Virus record (IMG/VR): IMGVR_UViG_3300042465_000874
Span: 1-33,810 of that record
Origin: a virus
Length of the DNA stretch: 33,810 bases
Reading direction: 5' to 3' (one strand)
In this document: piece by piece, positions 12,903 to 29,712 of the stretch
Position numbering within the stretch: the stretch's first letter is position 1
Layout of the letters: every line of letters begins with the position of its first letter
The notes under the pieces: generated by a model
The model's database searches: none
Told to the model about the DNA's origin: nothing
What the model saw: the letters and a program-made list of their open reading frames with translations, nothing else
Translations under genes and position numbers: made by a program

Positions 12903-13247
12903 TCATGCTATCACCTCAATCTCAACTTGGTAAACCTTAACACCACCAGGTCGCTGGAAATACTGCCAATCGATCTGCTTATGGCCATCATCAACGCCAA
13001 GCCAATCAGAGACGCCATCCCTGACTGCTTTAAACGCCGACTGCAGGTTATCCCCATCTAACGGCCTGGGCGCCACCCTGGTGAGCACAATGGTGCAAGG
13101 CGGTGCTGGTGGTGCAGCCAAACCAGCCAGTGCATTGAACGCGCTTTGCCGGTGCTTTTTCGCCAACTTAGCCTTAACTGCCCAATGCAACCTTAAGTTC
13201 GCAACCGACAAAATCTTCAACGGCAGGCAAACTTCAATCATTGCCAT
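12903..13247 (-). CDS. RusA-like Holliday junction nuclease family protein
   Basis: A 114-residue protein. Its core is RPLDGDNLQSAFKAVRDGVS, then LGVDDGHKQIDWQYFQR. The pattern DxDN, a spaced Lys and Asp, then DD followed by a beta strand is the RusA active-site arrangement, although the first Asp is in LDGDN. RusA enzymes resolve four-way junctions formed during recombination and replication; lambdoid phages carry them beside replication genes, as here. The reading frame is open further upstream to 13514, but that part is repeat-derived, so I place the start at the MAMIEV ATG (13247; an alternative ATG is at 13241). The nuclease call rests on the motif only. Confidence 0.65.
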   Translation of the reverse strand: MAMIEVCLPLKILSVANLRLHWAVKAKLAKKHRQSAFNALAGLAAPPAPPCTIVLTRVAPRPLDGDNLQSAFKAVRDGVSDWLGVDDGHKQIDWQYFQRPGGVKVYQVEIEVIA

Positions 13248-13277: not shown

Positions 13278-13470
13278 CATCCTGGTCCATCCGGCCCATC
13301 CGGCATCCGAACCATCCTGGGTATATATACCCAGGAGGAAGGATTCGGATGATTGCCGGGGTGGGAACCCGGATGGTTTCGGATGACTTCGGATGATTCG
13401 GATGATGATTCGGATGCATCCTGATTTATCCGATTCGGATGGTTTCGGATACTTTCGGATGGTTTGGATG
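13278..13470. repeat. Phased decamer array around a palindrome (iteron-like)
   Basis: Five CATCC units (starts 13278, 13288, 13297, 13304, 13313) lie left of the palindrome. To the right lie CGGATG/A units (8-mer starts 13344, 13368, 13378, 13388, 13397, 13409, 13434, 13444, 13454, and TTTGGATG at 13463). Spacing is mostly 9-12 bases, so the units recur on one face of the helix. The two sides are in opposite orientation. The array fills the gap between the RusA-like and primase-helicase genes and runs into the last 45 bases of the latter. It could bind an initiator, a partition protein or a regulator. Confidence 0.7.
13316..13335. repeat. Perfect 20-bp palindrome
   Basis: CCTGGGTATATATACCCAGG is fully self-complementary with an A/T-rich centre. 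It is flanked by CATCCGAA (from 13304) and TTCGGATG (from 13344), extending the symmetry. No T-run follows, so it is not a terminator of the usual kind. Confidence 0.85.
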
Positions 13471-15471
13471 ACTCCGATAACCCCCATCAGCCTCAACCAC
13501 CATGCCCTTAGCAATCATACTTTTGACTACTTCCCAAAATCTATTGTTCTTCACGTTGTGTTCCTTGGCTGACTCCCGCCATTCGTCGTAATTGACTGCA
13601 CTGGTCTGTTGATCGGTTGCCCGTTTAAGCTCGAGCATGACCAGGCATTCCATAACCCGCTTTTGGTTTGGTGACAGATACGTCTTCTTTTGTACCTGGC
13701 TGACCAGGCCGCTGATGTCAACGCTGGTCAGGTACGCGCCCTTGACCGCCAAGTTGTGCTTGTCCATGATCGGCAGGTCGATCTGGGTGATCTGGAAATT
13801 TTTGGCCGCGGGCATTTCCGCGTCTTTCATCTTCTTGGACTCAAACTGGATGGTCTTGGAGCCTGAGTCCAGCGCTACCTTGTACTCGGCATCCAGGGCA
13901 CCGCGCAGGGCCGTTGATCCCCGGCTGCGCTCCTTGTCCATGGCGCCTGAGTGGTGGACAACTAGCACGCAACACTTCCATGGTTGGCGCAGGTATGTGT
14001 CCAGGTGCTGGATAAAGGCATTCATGTCTTGGGTGCTGTTTTCGTCGCCCCCCATGTTTCTGGCCACCGTGTCGATGATGATCATGCTTGGTACGCACCC
14101 AGCATCTGCACTGAGCTGCTTGACCGACTCAGCCACAATGGCCGCTTCGGTGCTGTCGTACAACTGAGCCGCCCGGTGGCTTTTGTACAAGGGCACGCCG
14201 GCCAGGCTGATGCCGTTGCCCAGTTCCCACGCCTTGAACCGCCTAGCCAGCCCGTTGTGCCCCTCGCCAGCAATATAAAACACCGCACCCTGCTGTACCT
14301 GGTGCCCATGCCATGCGACGCCTGTGGCCACACAGCAGGCGATGTCGATGGACACAAAGCTCTTGCCACCGCCTGGGTCACCAAACACCTGGGCCAAGCT
14401 GTCGCCCTCGATGTAATCATCCACGATCCACTTGATCTGGGTTAGCTGCAGGCTGTCTGCTCTCGAAAACTCAAACGCCAGCTTATCCTTAACTGGTCCC
14501 GCTACGCGCTCAATCTGGTCCTTGACCGCTTCCAAACCCTGTAGGCAGTGCAGGTCATTAAAGTCTGTTGGTTTGGATAGCAAGTCAGACTCCGCAAAAT
14601 TTGGATAAACAATCTCGCCAAAGACAAGCGACGCTGCAGCTCTTCCCTTCGTCACCCCAGGGTTGCCCTCTGTGAACTGGTCATTGTCAGCACCAATCAC
14701 GATCCTGGCGCCAGGAAACATCTCTTTCGCGCTCTTGGCCACCTTGGCCAGGTTGCCACAATCAAACGCCACCAACACCGTGTACCCCGTCGCCTCATGG
14801 ATGCTCGCGCAAGTGGCAAACCCCTCGCCAACAAAGATCACCTTGCGGTTACCGCGCAACTCATAGAACCCACCCTCAATCTTGCCGCCCTTTAAGAACC
14901 GCTTGTTGCCATCAGCATCAATGGTCTGGTAACTCAGTATCTCCCCAGCCTGGTTGATCACCGGCACCACCAAGCGCCCAGCCCGGTCAATCTTGATCCC
15001 ATAAGGCCCAATGCGCTTCCTGACCAGGTATGGATGGTCAGCACTAGCATCTGTGTACGTCCCGACCTCTTCTTCTGCCTTCTCTGCAGCCACCGCTTGT
15101 GAGGCACTTTTCTCAGCCTCGCGCTTGGCCTTGAACTCTGCCACCCACTTATCATGCTCGAGTCGCTCGCTAAACGTCATTGACCGTCCAGTTTCTGCCA
15201 CCCACTTAGACTCAAATGTTGGCTCTTTCCAGCAGCCACACACACCCACAGGAATCTTGCCCCCAGTGTGCAAGATGTACCAACCGTCCACCGCACCCTT
15301 CTTGCTCGATATATGGGGCACCCGGTGAATCTCACCATCAGCAATCAACTCTTTGATCACCAGGCCAGACACCTCACAGTGCCGGCGAAAGCCCTCAACA
15401 GGGTTAACCAAATCTTGCGAGTCTGTGGCCACCGCAAAGCCATTAGGAAAAATGCTCGATAAACTGCTCAT
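13426..15471 (-). CDS. Toprim primase fused to RecA-like replicative helicase
   Basis: A 681-residue protein starting MSSLSSIFPNGF at 15471, where ATGA overlaps the stop of the repressor gene and GGAG lies 8 bases upstream; the open frame beyond that is rejected. Residues about 210-265 form a Toprim domain: VIFVGEGFATCASI, then FDCGN and IGADND. The C-terminal half is a RecA-like ATPase: Walker A GDPGGGKS at about 364-371, Walker B MIIIDTVARNMGGD, and a VLVVHHSG segment typical of RepA/DnaB-like helicases. A winged-helix-like tail (MECLVMLELKRATD) ends in repeat-derived residues HPNHPK. It would prime and unwind phage DNA. No zinc-finger cysteines are obvious at the N-terminus. Confidence 0.9.
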   Translation of the reverse strand: MSSLSSIFPNGFAVATDSQDLVNPVEGFRRHCEVSGLVIKELIADGEIHRVPHISSKKGAVDGWYILHTGGKIPVGVCGCWKEPTFESKWVAETGRSMTFSERLEHDKWVAEFKAKREAEKSASQAVAAEKAEEEVGTYTDASADHPYLVRKRIGPYGIKIDRAGRLVVPVINQAGEILSYQTIDADGNKRFLKGGKIEGGFYELRGNRKVIFVGEGFATCASIHEATGYTVLVAFDCGNLAKVAKSAKEMFPGARIVIGADNDQFTEGNPGVTKGRAAASLVFGEIVYPNFAESDLLSKPTDFNDLHCLQGLEAVKDQIERVAGPVKDKLAFEFSRADSLQLTQIKWIVDDYIEGDSLAQVFGDPGGGKSFVSIDIACCVATGVAWHGHQVQQGAVFYIAGEGHNGLARRFKAWELGNGISLAGVPLYKSHRAAQLYDSTEAAIVAESVKQLSADAGCVPSMIIIDTVARNMGGDENSTQDMNAFIQHLDTYLRQPWKCCVLVVHHSGAMDKERSRGSTALRGALDAEYKVALDSGSKTIQFESKKMKDAEMPAAKNFQITQIDLPIMDKHNLAVKGAYLTSVDISGLVSQVQKKTYLSPNQKRVMECLVMLELKRATDQQTSAVNYDEWRESAKEHNVKNNRFWEVVKSMIAKGMVVEADGGYRSHPNHPKVSETIRIG

Positions 15472-15686
15472 GCTTGTGCCTCCACCAACTCTGGCCATAT
15501 AGACTTCCAACTGCCCTGGCACAGCATCTTGCGAGTGATCTTGCCCCCACTCTCTTGCTCTATGCGCACAGCCTCCCAGGCAGACATCTCTCGACGCCCA
15601 CTCAGGCACTGGTATAAGTACTGTTCATTCATGCCGACTTTTTCTGCCAGTGCTCGGCGCTCATCTGGTGCGATTTGTGTGTTCAT
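15468..15686 (-). CDS. YdaS/Cro-like helix-turn-helix repressor
   Basis: A 72-residue protein with one helix-turn-helix: ERRALAEKVGMNEQYLYQCL followed by SGRREMSAWEAVRIEQESGG. The pattern, including a Lys-Ile-Thr-Arg-linked C-terminal tail with a Trp-Pro-Glu motif, is that of the YdaS/Cro-type regulators found at phage control regions. It is transcribed away from the plus-strand early operon across a 187-base region full of dyad elements, and is translationally coupled to the primase-helicase. I infer that it binds the TCTAGC-N5-GCTAGA dyads and controls both directions. It has no oligomerisation or cleavage domain, so it is not CI-like. Confidence 0.85.
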   Translation of the reverse strand: MNTQIAPDERRALAEKVGMNEQYLYQCLSGRREMSAWEAVRIEQESGGKITRKMLCQGSWKSIWPELVEAQA

Positions 15687-17585: not shown

Positions 17586-17962
17586 TGACAATAACTGAAC
17601 TGACCGCCGCCCTTAAAGTGGCCAAGGCCGCTGAAGACGCAGCTAAACAGGACCGCTTGGCCATTGAAGCTAAGATGGTCGCCCTATTTGCAAAACCAGC
17701 ATCTGGTGAAGGCACCCACAATGATGAAGATTTCAGCATCACCTGGAAACTCAACCGCACGGTTGACACCGACAAGTTGAGCGCAGCCTTTGACCAGTTG
17801 CCGGTCAACGCCCAGCGAGCATTTCGCTGGAAGGCTGAGGTTGAACTTAAAAACCTCCGAGCTTTGTCCGAACTTGACCCAGTGGCTTACTCTGCAGCCG
17901 CCCAATTCATCACCAGCAAACCCGCAAAACCATCCATCACTTTGAAAGACGAAAATGTTTGA
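17585..17962 (+). CDS. Recombination-cluster accessory protein, hypothetical (125 aa)
   Basis: The N-terminal third is a charged helix (LKVAKAAEDAAKQDRLAIEA). Later come FSITWKLNRTVDTDKL and RAFRWKAEVELKNLRALSEL, then ITSKPAKPSITLK. This layout is familiar from small proteins always found just before Sak4/DUF669 genes in phages, with no assigned function. GGAG lies 7 bases before the ATG. The overlap of 8 bases with the ATPase gene suggests the products work together. A loader or cofactor for recombination is an inference from context. Confidence 0.75.
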   Translation: MTITELTAALKVAKAAEDAAKQDRLAIEAKMVALFAKPASGEGTHNDEDFSITWKLNRTVDTDKLSAAFDQLPVNAQRAFRWKAEVELKNLRALSELDPVAYSAAAQFITSKPAKPSITLKDENV

Positions 17963-18698
17963 CCTCAAGTCCATATCCAAGACCCGCCGTGTTCGCGCCC
18001 CCAAGATTGTCATTGTTGGCCAGGGCAAGATCGGCAAGACAACTTTTGCAGCCATGGCGCCCAACGCCATTGGCATCCTGACCGAAGACGGCGCCGACGC
18101 TGTTGACGCCAATGCCTTTCCTTTGGCGTCAAGCCTGGCCGAGGTTTACGCAGCCATTGAGACCCTGATTAGCAGCGAGCATGACTTCAAGACGTTGTTT
18201 ATCGACTCGCTGGATTGGCTCGAGCCCATGGTTCAAGACTATGTGTGCAAGCAAAACAACTGGAAGAACATCGAGGCGCCTGGCTTTGGCAAGGGCTACG
18301 TGGCTGCAGCCGAGGAGTGGCGCAACCTGTTGTCTGGCCTGGAAGTGCTCCGCGCTCAAAAGAGCATGGGCATTATCTTGATTGCGCATGACAAGATCAA
18401 GCGCATTGAAGACCCGCTGACCGAGGGCTATGACTCGCACGTCTTAAAGCTCCATGACCGCGCTGCCGGCCTGGTGCTCGAGTGGGCCGACGTGGTGGGC
18501 TATGCTGGGTATCGCATCTTCACCAGCAAGACCGACGCAGGCTTTGGCAACAAAGAAACTAAGGCCACCACTACTGGCGAGCGCATTTTGCACGTCGAAC
18601 CCCATCCGGCTCACTGCGGTGGTAACCGCTTTGGCCTTACCAATATGCAGCTTGATTGGGCTGCATTCCAGGCCGCGTTGTCCGCAGCGCAGTCCTGA
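17955..18698 (+). CDS. Sak4-like single-strand annealing/recombination ATPase
   Basis: A 247-residue P-loop protein. Walker A is VGQGKIGKTTF at about residues 21-31, and Walker B is LFIDSLDWLEP at about 80-90. IILIAHDKIKR follows, typical of the AAA_24/Sak4 branch of RecA-like phage recombinases. Sak4 proteins anneal or pair single-stranded DNA together with a partner SSB, which here is encoded next. The absence of a RecA C-terminal domain matches the short Sak4 type. Confidence 0.88.
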   Translation: MFDLKSISKTRRVRAPKIVIVGQGKIGKTTFAAMAPNAIGILTEDGADAVDANAFPLASSLAEVYAAIETLISSEHDFKTLFIDSLDWLEPMVQDYVCKQNNWKNIEAPGFGKGYVAAAEEWRNLLSGLEVLRAQKSMGIILIAHDKIKRIEDPLTEGYDSHVLKLHDRAAGLVLEWADVVGYAGYRIFTSKTDAGFGNKETKATTTGERILHVEPHPAHCGGNRFGLTNMQLDWAAFQAALSAAQS

Positions 18699-18734
18699 TC
18701 CTCAATCCAACCATCAACCTTTAGGAAACACAAA

Positions 18735-19223
18735 ATGGCACACTTTTCTTTTGACGCATCCATTGTTGCACCCCAAGCACCCACCGGCCCAATCCCTGCC
18801 GGCGTTTATCTGGCCCATTGCATTGAGTCTGATGTCGGCCCATTGAAGTCCGGCAACGGCACGGGCTTGAAGATGACTTTTGAAATCTTGGATGGCCAGT
18901 ACAAAAACCGCAAAGTCTGGGAAAACCTTAACATCCAACACACCAGCGAGGAAACCCAGCGCATCGCGCAAAGCCAACTTTCAGCCCTTTGCCACGCCGT
19001 CAACGTGATTAAGTTGGAAGACACTGCTGCCTTGCACTTTAAGCCGGTCAAGATCAAGGTGACTGTGCGCGAGGCCCAGGGCCAGTACCAGGCAAGCAAC
19101 AACATCAAGGGTTATGAGTCCGCTGGTGGAGCTGCTCCATCGTTTGTGCCGGCCCCCGCTGAAGCTGCAGCCCCCGCTGCCCCCCCCGCGGCATCCAAGA
19201 CCCCCGCCTGGGCTAGGAAGTAA
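18735..19223 (+). CDS. DUF669-type single-stranded DNA-binding protein
   Basis: The 162-residue protein has an OB-like N-terminal core: GPIPAGVYLAHCIESDVGP, then GTGLKMTFEILDGQYKNRKV and WENLNIQHTSEETQRIAQ, a classic DUF669 pattern. The tail after about residue 130 is low-complexity Ala/Pro and ends SKTPAWARK. DUF669 proteins bind single-stranded DNA and accompany Sak4 recombinases. The AGGA ribosome site is 8 bases upstream. The disordered Ala/Pro tail could connect to the recombinase or nuclease, as SSB tails do. Confidence 0.88.
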   Translation: MAHFSFDASIVAPQAPTGPIPAGVYLAHCIESDVGPLKSGNGTGLKMTFEILDGQYKNRKVWENLNIQHTSEETQRIAQSQLSALCHAVNVIKLEDTAALHFKPVKIKVTVREAQGQYQASNNIKGYESAGGAAPSFVPAPAEAAAPAAPPAASKTPAWARK

Positions 19224-19226
19224 ACC

Positions 19227-20312
19227 ATGGCCGCAGTCCCACAAGCTGTTGTGGACCCTGTGGCCGACGCCATCTTTGCCCATTACAAGGCAAAGTATGG
19301 CGCCGAGTCCCAGCGCCCCTACCTTGGCGCCAGTGCCATTGGCAAGCCCTGCTTGCGCCAGCACTGGTATTCTTTTCGTTGGTCTAAGCCGGCAGAGTTT
19401 TCTGGCCGTCTGTACCGGGTTTTTCAGTCCGGTCATTTGCAAGAGCCAAGGGTCTATGCCGACCTCAAGGGCATTGGCTGCACGGTCTATGACGCAAACC
19501 CTAGCACCGGCAAGCAGTTTGGTTGGAGTGAGCCGGCAACCGGGCACCACTTCCAGGGCAACTGTGATGGAATCGTGACCGGCCTGCCCCAGGCGCCCAA
19601 GTCGCCGCACATATTGGAGATCAAGACGGCCTCGGACAAGTATTTCAAGGAGATGCAAAAATCTGGCGTAAAGAAAGCCAAGCCAGAGCACTGGGCGCAG
19701 ATGCAATCATATATGCATTGGTCTATTGCAGAATTCCAAGATGATGGTTGCCAACGCGCCATCTATATCGTGGTCAACAAGGACAACGACGACATCTACA
19801 CCGAGCGCATTGAGTACGACGCCGCCGAGGTCCAGGCTATCATTGACAAGGCGCTGACAATCATCACGGCTACCGAGCCGCCGGTGGGAATCAGCACCGA
19901 CCCGACCTGGTATGAGTGCAAGTTCTGTGACTACCACAGCATCTGCCACGGCACTGACGTGCCAAAGATGAGCTGCAGGTCATGCGCCCATGCCACGCCC
20001 GAGCTCGATGGCCATGGCCGCTGGACGTGCTCTGCGCACGGCCAAGACCTGCCAACATCTAAGCAGCGCACCGGCTGCGATGACCACAGGTATATCCCCA
20101 TATTGCTTGCCAAGACCGCTCACCCTGTAGACATGGACAACGACGGGGTTGTGTATGAGATGGCCGACAAGAAGCGCTTTGTCAACGGCAACCCGGCAAA
20201 GAACCCAGACCATATTGCTAGCCAAGAAATCCATGCTTGCGCCGACAAGTCAATGCTGGTTGACGAGCAGTGCATAAGCTTGCGCAAACAACATTCAGGA
20301 AAATTTGTATGA
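19227..20312 (+). CDS. PD-(D/E)XK exonuclease, Cas4/AddB-like type
   Basis: A 361-residue nuclease. The early motif GASAIGKPCLRQHWYSFRW contains the conserved Ser/Ala-Cys start of PDDEXK_1 domains. The active site is Asp near 114 in GNCDGIVTG and Glu-Ile-Lys near 131-133 in HILEIKTAS, followed by QMQSYMHW (QxxxY helix). Beyond residue 220 there are many Cys (CKFCDYHSIC, CRSCAHA), which could hold an iron-sulphur cluster or zinc. It would resect DNA ends for Sak4/SSB recombination. Length beyond the core suggests an extra C-terminal Cys-rich domain. Confidence 0.87.
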   Translation: MAAVPQAVVDPVADAIFAHYKAKYGAESQRPYLGASAIGKPCLRQHWYSFRWSKPAEFSGRLYRVFQSGHLQEPRVYADLKGIGCTVYDANPSTGKQFGWSEPATGHHFQGNCDGIVTGLPQAPKSPHILEIKTASDKYFKEMQKSGVKKAKPEHWAQMQSYMHWSIAEFQDDGCQRAIYIVVNKDNDDIYTERIEYDAAEVQAIIDKALTIITATEPPVGISTDPTWYECKFCDYHSICHGTDVPKMSCRSCAHATPELDGHGRWTCSAHGQDLPTSKQRTGCDDHRYIPILLAKTAHPVDMDNDGVVYEMADKKRFVNGNPAKNPDHIASQEIHACADKSMLVDEQCISLRKQHSGKFV

Positions 20313-28674: not shown

Positions 28675-29712
28675 TTAGCCTGTGTATGTTGATCTGCGAG
28701 TCCGGTCGTTATACGCAGCTAACATATCTTGTTGGCCAGCGTAGTTCAAATACGAACCCAAGCCGCCGGTCAAAGCGTTGATCCCGCCAACTGTACCCGC
28801 AGCGTTTGCGGCTGCGCCTGATGTCATCAGGTTGCCGACGTTAGACGCCATGTTTTGTCCGGCAGCGCCTACTTGACCCGTGGCCGTCTGGCCGATACCC
28901 GCCAAAGCCGCCAAACGGTTGTAGCCTGTGGCTTCACGCGCTACATCGGCGTTGTAGCCCGTCAGCGCTCGGTTGTAGGCGTTCTGATATTCTTGACTGC
29001 CCATTTCTTGGCCGAAGCGTTGTGCGGCTTTCATAGCCCCGCCAGAGATCAAGCCACCCCTTGCGGCAGCGCTTCGATCCAATGCCTTCTGGCCTTCGGA
29101 CAATCGGAACGCATAGCCTGGGTCTTGGCCTAAATCAACTCTGCCGGTAAACGCCCCCGGCATCATGTTGCGCTGTGCCTCAAGCTGGGGCAGCGCACGC
29201 ACGCCAGCTTGACGGAATGGCTCTTGTAACGCGGCTTGATCTCTAAATTGTTGGTATTGCAAATCAGCCGCACGGCTTGCGGCGGCTGCTTGCGCGCTGC
29301 CGGCCTGTTGGGCTGCGTTAGAACCAAGCAAAGAACTGCCCAGCATGGCCGCAGGCAGCATCCAACTAGACCCCATTCCAGCGCCAGTTAAAGCATTGAC
29401 ACCCGCAGCGCCGGCAGCCCCCGCTCCAGCAGCCCCAGCAGCGCCGCCAGCAGTCAACCCCGCAATCGCATCGTATGCAGCCAGATCGGCAGCGCCCGCT
29501 CCAGCAGCGCCCGCTCCAGCGCTGCCAAAATACTGCATCGCGGCTGGCCCACCATAATAAATTGCCGCAGCTATAGCGGCTGCTTTAGCTGCGTCGCCCC
29601 CGCCGGTCTTCCAATAATCGTCCAGCGTTCCCGCTGGATTTTGAACAAATTTGGTTGTTGTATCAGATAACGTGCCAATGGGGTTGTTAAGAAACTGTTT
29701 AAAAAAGCTCAT
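28675..29712 (-). CDS. DNA transfer/injection protein (gp7-like, 345 aa)
   Basis: The N-terminal 35 residues (MSFFKQFLNNPIGTLSDTTT) are followed by a hydrophobic Ala/Gly-rich region to about 150 with membrane potential. The C-terminal part has QDPGYAFRLSEGQKALDRSA, ARGGLISGGAMKAAQRFGQE and YQNAYNRALTGYN, a signature of phage injection proteins. It would be carried in the virion and help make a channel across the envelope. A strong AAGGAG lies 7 bases before the ATG. It occupies the P22 gp7 position. Confidence 0.8.
   Translation of the reverse strand: MSFFKQFLNNPIGTLSDTTTKFVQNPAGTLDDYWKTGGGDAAKAAAIAAAIYYGGPAAMQYFGSAGAGAAGAGAADLAAYDAIAGLTAGGAAGAAGAGAAGAAGVNALTGAGMGSSWMLPAAMLGSSLLGSNAAQQAGSAQAAAASRAADLQYQQFRDQAALQEPFRQAGVRALPQLEAQRNMMPGAFTGRVDLGQDPGYAFRLSEGQKALDRSAAARGGLISGGAMKAAQRFGQEMGSQEYQNAYNRALTGYNADVAREATGYNRLAALAGIGQTATGQVGAAGQNMASNVGNLMTSGAAANAAGTVGGINALTGGLGSYLNYAGQQDMLAAYNDRTRRSTYTG

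Follow-up and report, generated by a model that had tools for sequence, protein, structure and literature searches.

A probable replication origin recognised by its own primase-helicase in a freshwater phage: phased iterons around a hairpin, matched to a C-terminal winged helix

Between two co-oriented genes of a freshwater phage, one for a primase-helicase and one for a RusA-like protein, short phased repeats lie on both sides of a hairpin, and the question is what they do and which protein reads them. A first-pass annotation had offered three options: an origin to which the primase-helicase binds, a centromere-like partition site or a site of recombination. The window, which is the whole stretch of DNA analysed, is the 33.8-kb virus record IMGVR_UViG_3300042465_000874 (33,810 nucleotides); its genes include a P22-like portal, an Sf6-type small terminase and a large terminase. 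A nucleotide search with the window against named phages gave no match, and a GTDB scan for hosts brought up two matches only, both distant (37-39% over a portion of the primase-helicase). The locus is composed of the following elements:

12903-13241, minus strand: RusA-like gene (probable ATG at 13241; PHROG RusA-like, 6.9e-8), the right-hand flank of the putative cassette
13278-13317, plus strand: opposed short array of CATCC/CATCCG units facing the gene-side array
13315-13336, no strand: central hairpin TCCTGGGTA-TATA-TACCCAGGA, 22 nt, 9-bp stem, loop TATA
13344-13471, minus strand: gene-side iteron array of CATCCGAA(NN), direct orientation, 10-bp phased, overlapping the 3' end of the primase-helicase gene
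13426-15609, minus strand: primase-helicase gene (Toprim_3, AAA_25 and C-terminal winged helix), 727 aa from a GTG, true start uncertain

The primase-helicase combines AAA_25 (Pfam, 7.7e-36) and Toprim_3 (1.9e-9) in one protein, and its PHROGs annotation is DNA primase / replicative helicase-primase. The helicase of the P4 alpha protein is of the SF3 type; here, the Pfam search assigned the motor to AAA_25 only, with no SF3/D5 family model and no pair of archaeo-eukaryotic primase and SF3 helicase. In six relatives (L034, L050, L013, L014, L054 and L077), the first ~46 residues are split off by several hundred bases, which suggests that the N-terminal part contains an insertion or has been given a wrong start. 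Elsewhere in the window, on the strand opposite to the primase-helicase (17955-20312, plus strand), a gene for a Sak4-like annealing protein is shortly followed by one for a Cas4-domain exonuclease.

The phased CATCC and CGGATG units are present where they had been described. On the plus strand, CGGATG starts at 13346, 13370, 13380, 13390, 13399, 13411, 13436 and 13456, with variant units at 13446 (CGGATA) and 13466 (TGGATG); neighbouring starts are 9-12 bp apart, except at two places where the distance is 24-25 bp. Across the hairpin, CATCC units begin at 13278, 13288, 13297, 13304 and 13313, spaced by 7-10 bp. The position given earlier (13278-13470) was thus right, but the arrays reach about 13471. 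The full unit, read on the coding (minus) strand, is CATCCGAA followed by two variable bases. With seven exact copies of CATCCGAA against one exact and several partial inverted copies, the mirror arrangement seen in the first reading is real but unequal.

Such a density is far from chance: a 230-bp stretch holds 11 copies of CGGATG/CATCCG, while 2000 first-order Markov simulations gave 0.1 on average, at most 3, and never more than six copies of any 6-mer. TTCGGAT is absent from the rest of the window outside the array. A second 6-mer cluster, at 29300-29560, apparently consists of Ala-rich coding repeats. As the first-pass annotation had noticed, the array enters the coding 3' end of the primase-helicase gene, where the repeats encode its HPNHPK tail; positions 13429-13464 of the array account for the unconserved end of the protein. 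A second small dyad of inverted units surrounds the stop codon of the gene (13404-13441), and similar dyads are found there in other motif classes. The array region, with a GC content of 0.536, is not AT-rich, unlike most melting origins. The cumulative GC skew across the window shows no turn at the array and is uninformative on an origin.

A search of IMG/VR with the primase-helicase retrieved 80 loci, that is, 80 viral contigs in which the protein is kept. Relatives with the same genes but no array, named at the outset as what would speak against a functional site, were not encountered: the array is present in 80 of 80. It lies upstream of the RusA-like gene wherever this gene falls within the fetched stretch, and it is also kept where the downstream gene differs. 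It is retained when genes are inserted between the primase-helicase and the array (L041, L042, L045, L063) or between the array and RusA (L022, L026, L032, L050, L051). The extra genes between the winged-helix codons and the array were seen at 5898-6722 in L041, where the inserted stretch lies within the exchanged segment, at 7436-8277 in L207, where the inserted gene resembles, by eye, a PAPS reductase-like protein, and in L042, L045 and L063.

The repeat unit varies between loci and is largely uniform within one locus. Five motif classes were distinguished: CATCCGAA (40 loci, the window included), GTACCGAA (19), GAACCGAA (15), CGTCCGGA (5) and GATCCGGA (2). In most classes, the tail following the winged helix is encoded by the repeats, and this tail is modelled with low confidence by AF2. 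Three cultured phages with a protein of only ~30-33% identity, Alteromonas phage PB15, Idiomarinaceae phage 1N2-2 and Salicola phage CGphi29, also have arrays laid out in this way 3' of the gene, built from different units (GGTTCA, CGGTACA, GGGGACA). Many uncultured relatives of PB15 and 1N2-2 share the layout too. Roseobacter phage CRP-406 (L087, 4407-4971) is possibly a further member: the 3' end of its primase-helicase gene lies in GCTGGAA repeats, which continue into the next annotated gene, and a GGCTGGAAACGATATTTCCAGCC hairpin is present. The arrangement is not universal, since in one distant phage record (L086) the repA-like gene is followed by a terminator-like hairpin alone, with no array of this kind.

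Which protein reads the units was approached by comparing the motif class with each part of the primase-helicase. The mutual information between class and protein, taken per column in 40-residue bins, is 0.05-0.21 bits up to residue 635 and rises to 0.60-0.72 bits in residues 636-715. Two further features of the window are needed here:

13465-13689, minus strand: winged-helix codons (residues 641-715), the putative repeat reader, from the AF2 fold and the class information
13510-13548, minus strand: region encoding the predicted recognition helix, residues 688-700, in which N688 and W692 lie

Nine columns separate TCCG-type from ACCG-type units without exception, all of them at residues 647-707. 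N688 and W692 are perfect discriminators of the two types; position 692, which falls in the predicted recognition helix, holds W in every phage of the TCCG type and K or R in every one of the ACCG type, although only five phylogenetically independent pairs are available for this residue (5/5 agree, p = 0.0625). The AF2 model of residues 641-715 is a helix-helix-helix-strand-strand fold with a pLDDT of about 82-93. Among its closest solved structures by VIA-align 2 are the MCM C-terminal winged helix (2ma3; Z 9.8, rmsd 2.0, 65 residues) and the winged helix of ORC2 (5c8h; Z 9.4, rmsd 2.7, 87 residues). Plain Foldseek gave no significant E-values, so the fold class is clear and no closer kinship is claimed. 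Most likely, then, the tail domain of the primase-helicase reads the array. The proposal of an origin bound by this protein gains strong comparative support, as the repeats are tracked by its C-terminal winged helix and by no other part.

The match was also examined from the DNA side. IMG/VR was scanned prospectively for three phased CATCCGAA or GTACCGAA units, with no protein reference. The scan hit 91 contigs, 60 of them absent from the first set. Among 87 newly fetched loci found by their array, 84 carry a winged helix that by best match is of the expected class, none carries one of the wrong class, and three have no winged-helix match. In two of the latter (L153 and L193), the array lies at the edge of the locus; the third (L207), with its RusA-like gene and array, ends before the expected primase-helicase. 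Satellites or other elements with an array but no reader were rejected for these 87 loci, the three being the only candidates.

The array and the winged helix do not follow the rest of the protein in descent. At least 14 changes of motif class are required on the tree of the protein core (residues 47-636), whereas the winged-helix tree needs four, the minimum for five classes. The relatives L035 and L082 illustrate this: their cores are 99.8% and their RusA-like proteins 98.1% identical, while their winged helices share 50% and their units are GAACCGAA and GTACCGAA. In such swap pairs, the DNA identity is ~90% until ~60 bp before codon 641, ~30-70% through the winged helix and the array only, and ~90% again near the RusA gene. 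An independent swap in a distant clade (L143 and L145) combines cores of 98.7% identity with winged helices of 53.5% and units GGTAACA and GGTACCT. The best explanation of these patterns is that winged helix, array and hairpin form one specificity cassette of ~0.5 kb, which related phages have exchanged repeatedly. Through such an exchange, near-identical replication proteins would gain new origin specificities.

The winged helix and the array are adjacent in most phages, hence linkage alone could give part of the match: neighbours may be swapped together with no contact between them. The RusA-like gene is equally adjacent on the other side, yet it does not track the motif class. Its tree needs 15 class changes, and RusA is 98% identical between phages with different arrays; binding of the array by the RusA-like protein, a suggestion of the first reading, is disfavoured, and this protein was rejected as the repeat reader. 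Moreover, the right-hand boundary of the exchanged segment is sharp, and in L041, L042, L045 and L063 the match persists even if ~0.7-1.4 kb separates the array from the winged helix. All 84 classified loci of the scan match, and the discriminating residues include those of the predicted recognition helix. Linkage as the whole explanation is therefore highly improbable.

A class match with the winged helix suits any binding role, and the position between co-oriented genes would also fit an operator, through which the winged helix autoregulates its own operon or controls transcription into RusA and the late genes. The array, on the contrary, is found at the 3' end of the gene of its reader and not at the promoter of that gene, and promoter-like sites within it are not above chance. 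It is kept with a gene inserted on either side and with a different gene downstream, and a processive primase-helicase would be an unusual repressor. An operator function is considered very unlikely.

The hairpin in the center follows a different rule. The perfect 20-bp palindrome originally reported is, in the window, a 22-nt hairpin; in relatives, the loops (TACA, TAAT, TAAA) are often not palindromic. About 28 distinct hairpin sequences occur in the clade, counting perfect stems only, and each stem position shows at least two types of Watson-Crick pair. An extraction anchored on the flanks and blind to pairing, in the CATCCGAA class, gave 11 sequences from 64 loci, all of them hairpins; 0.83 of the cells are paired, compared to 0.68 after shuffling of the columns (0 of 1000 shuffles as high). 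Folded as DNA, six loci from the clade reach z-scores between -3.3 and -5.8, and two distant phages -1.7 and -4.0. The innermost inverted units usually lengthen the stem. The stem sequence is not bound to the motif class, as TCCTGTGTC-TATA-GACACAGGA is found in phages with CATCCGAA as well as GATCCGGA units. The repeats thus follow the winged helix, and the hairpin seems to be kept for its shape. Within a clade, loops that are not self-complementary point the same way on the coding strand (TACA, TAAT, TAAA; often TTTA in the distant clade), a hint of a strand-specific role.

A stable fold with compensating stem changes and asymmetric loops of fixed orientation would also be expected of a structured intergenic RNA formed by the long hairpin, acting in processing, attenuation or anti-termination. 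An intrinsic terminator was rejected, as no T-run follows the hairpin and no terminator is listed there; a known RNA family was likewise rejected, an Rfam search giving no match. An RNA role would, furthermore, leave unexplained both the 10-bp phasing and the change of the repeats in step with the winged helix of the helicase, and it is given very little credence. Phased inverted repeats around a palindrome resemble centromere-like partition sites and sites of recombination or telomere resolution as well. Here, the class-matched part belongs to the primase-helicase and not to a partition protein or recombinase, the array is internal in relatives' contigs of 34-37 kb instead of at their end, and the loops are often not palindromic. 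Nothing seen in the comparison pointed to such a site, and this last alternative is considered very unlikely.

The reading that accounts for the locus, to which we assign a probability of roughly 0.85, is that iterons, hairpin and inverted iterons constitute the phage's replication origin, recognised by its own primase-helicase. What the comparison of sequences establishes is the presence and conservation of repeats and hairpin, the match of winged helix to repeats in each class, and the limits of the cassette; binding itself, loading from two sides, melting and priming at the hairpin, and activity as an origin are what we infer. The C-terminal winged helix would bind the CATCCGAA iterons, probably one per 10-bp turn and from one side of the helix. 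Two assemblies of opposite orientation would be seated by the opposed arrays, one on each side of the hairpin. The RecA-like (AAA_25) motor could then open the DNA at the hairpin, exposing a strand on which the Toprim domain would prime, perhaps with the hairpin as a guide.

Origins with iterons next to the initiator gene are known. The C-terminal domain of the SaPI Rep protein recognises iterons directly downstream of its gene, and Rep appears to bind as two hexamers (PMC7581432); in PICI origins, a probable melting site lies between two sets of iterons (PMC6092414). The present locus shares with these rep-ori modules an initiator helicase whose C-terminal domain is predicted to read short iterons 3' of its own gene, in two sets (PMC6092414, PMC7581432). 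The iterons lie directly 3' of the initiator helicase gene, apart from a few relatives with an inserted gene, although the origin itself is putative; that specificity would be set by the C-terminal domain of the helicase follows from the comparative evidence. In contrast to SaPI and PICI, the AAA_25 helicase is fused to a Toprim primase, the opposed iteron sets flank a hairpin and not an AT-rich spacer, and the carriers are phages with their own structural genes, not satellites.

P4 alpha also unites primase and helicase in one protein, as the present Toprim-type fusion does, and binds its origin repeats with a winged helix (PMC4234260). The differences are the AAA_25 motor, the hairpin between opposed arrays and the repeats adjoining the gene of their reader. 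As to a relation of the predicted winged helix to the P4 alpha domain, a profile search of PDB sequences gave no significant hit. In the Sulfolobus plasmid pRN1, a stem-loop whose structure is conserved, but not its sequence, is required 3' of the rep gene, and the protein ends in a winged helix (PMC4234260). The stem-loop 3' of the primase-helicase gene is likewise conserved in structure and not in sequence, whereas pRN1 has an archaeo-eukaryotic primase with an SF3 helicase, and no iterons. RSF1010 (RepA/RepB'/RepC) uses iterons and hairpins for strand-specific priming, the hairpins being exposed by RepA (PMC4234260), with three separate proteins there against one fused protein here. A search of PDB sequences with the primase-helicase for homology to RSF1010 RepA gave no match at E 0.01, despite the AAA_25 match in Pfam. 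Finally, in the PLE satellites of Vibrio cholerae the origin is exchanged along with the domain that binds it, and pairs that are not cognate do not work (PMC8263062). PLE have a RepA_N initiator in a satellite and few types; in the phages studied here the protein is a primase-helicase, the types are many, and a single clade requires at least 14 changes of class. Judged on the open-licence literature, initiator-adjacent iteron origins are thus known from SaPI/PICI, P4 and pRN1, while the present variant and its swapping appear to be new; the degree of specificity swapping and the hairpin at the center are what is unusual.

More tentatively, at somewhat less than even odds, phage origins of a broad class may share this design: a fused AAA_25/Toprim primase-helicase that loads itself where iterons flank a hairpin on both sides. 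Specificity would then be a rapidly exchanged allelic trait with many matched types in circulation, plausibly driven by competitors, satellites or origin-directed nucleases, and the hairpin would be a strand-specific priming signal independent of type.

The origins of most environmental phages are unknown. Here, the likely origin and the domain that recognises it can be read from the sequence in many uncultured phages. The matched pairs found in nature form a protein-DNA code that can be read off, W692 going with TCCG and K or R692 with ACCG, for example, and they suggest that origin specificity acts like an incompatibility type exchanged between phages. Sharing and theft of replication machinery in mixed infections thus become open to test, as does a role of satellites or origin-directed nucleases in driving the swaps.
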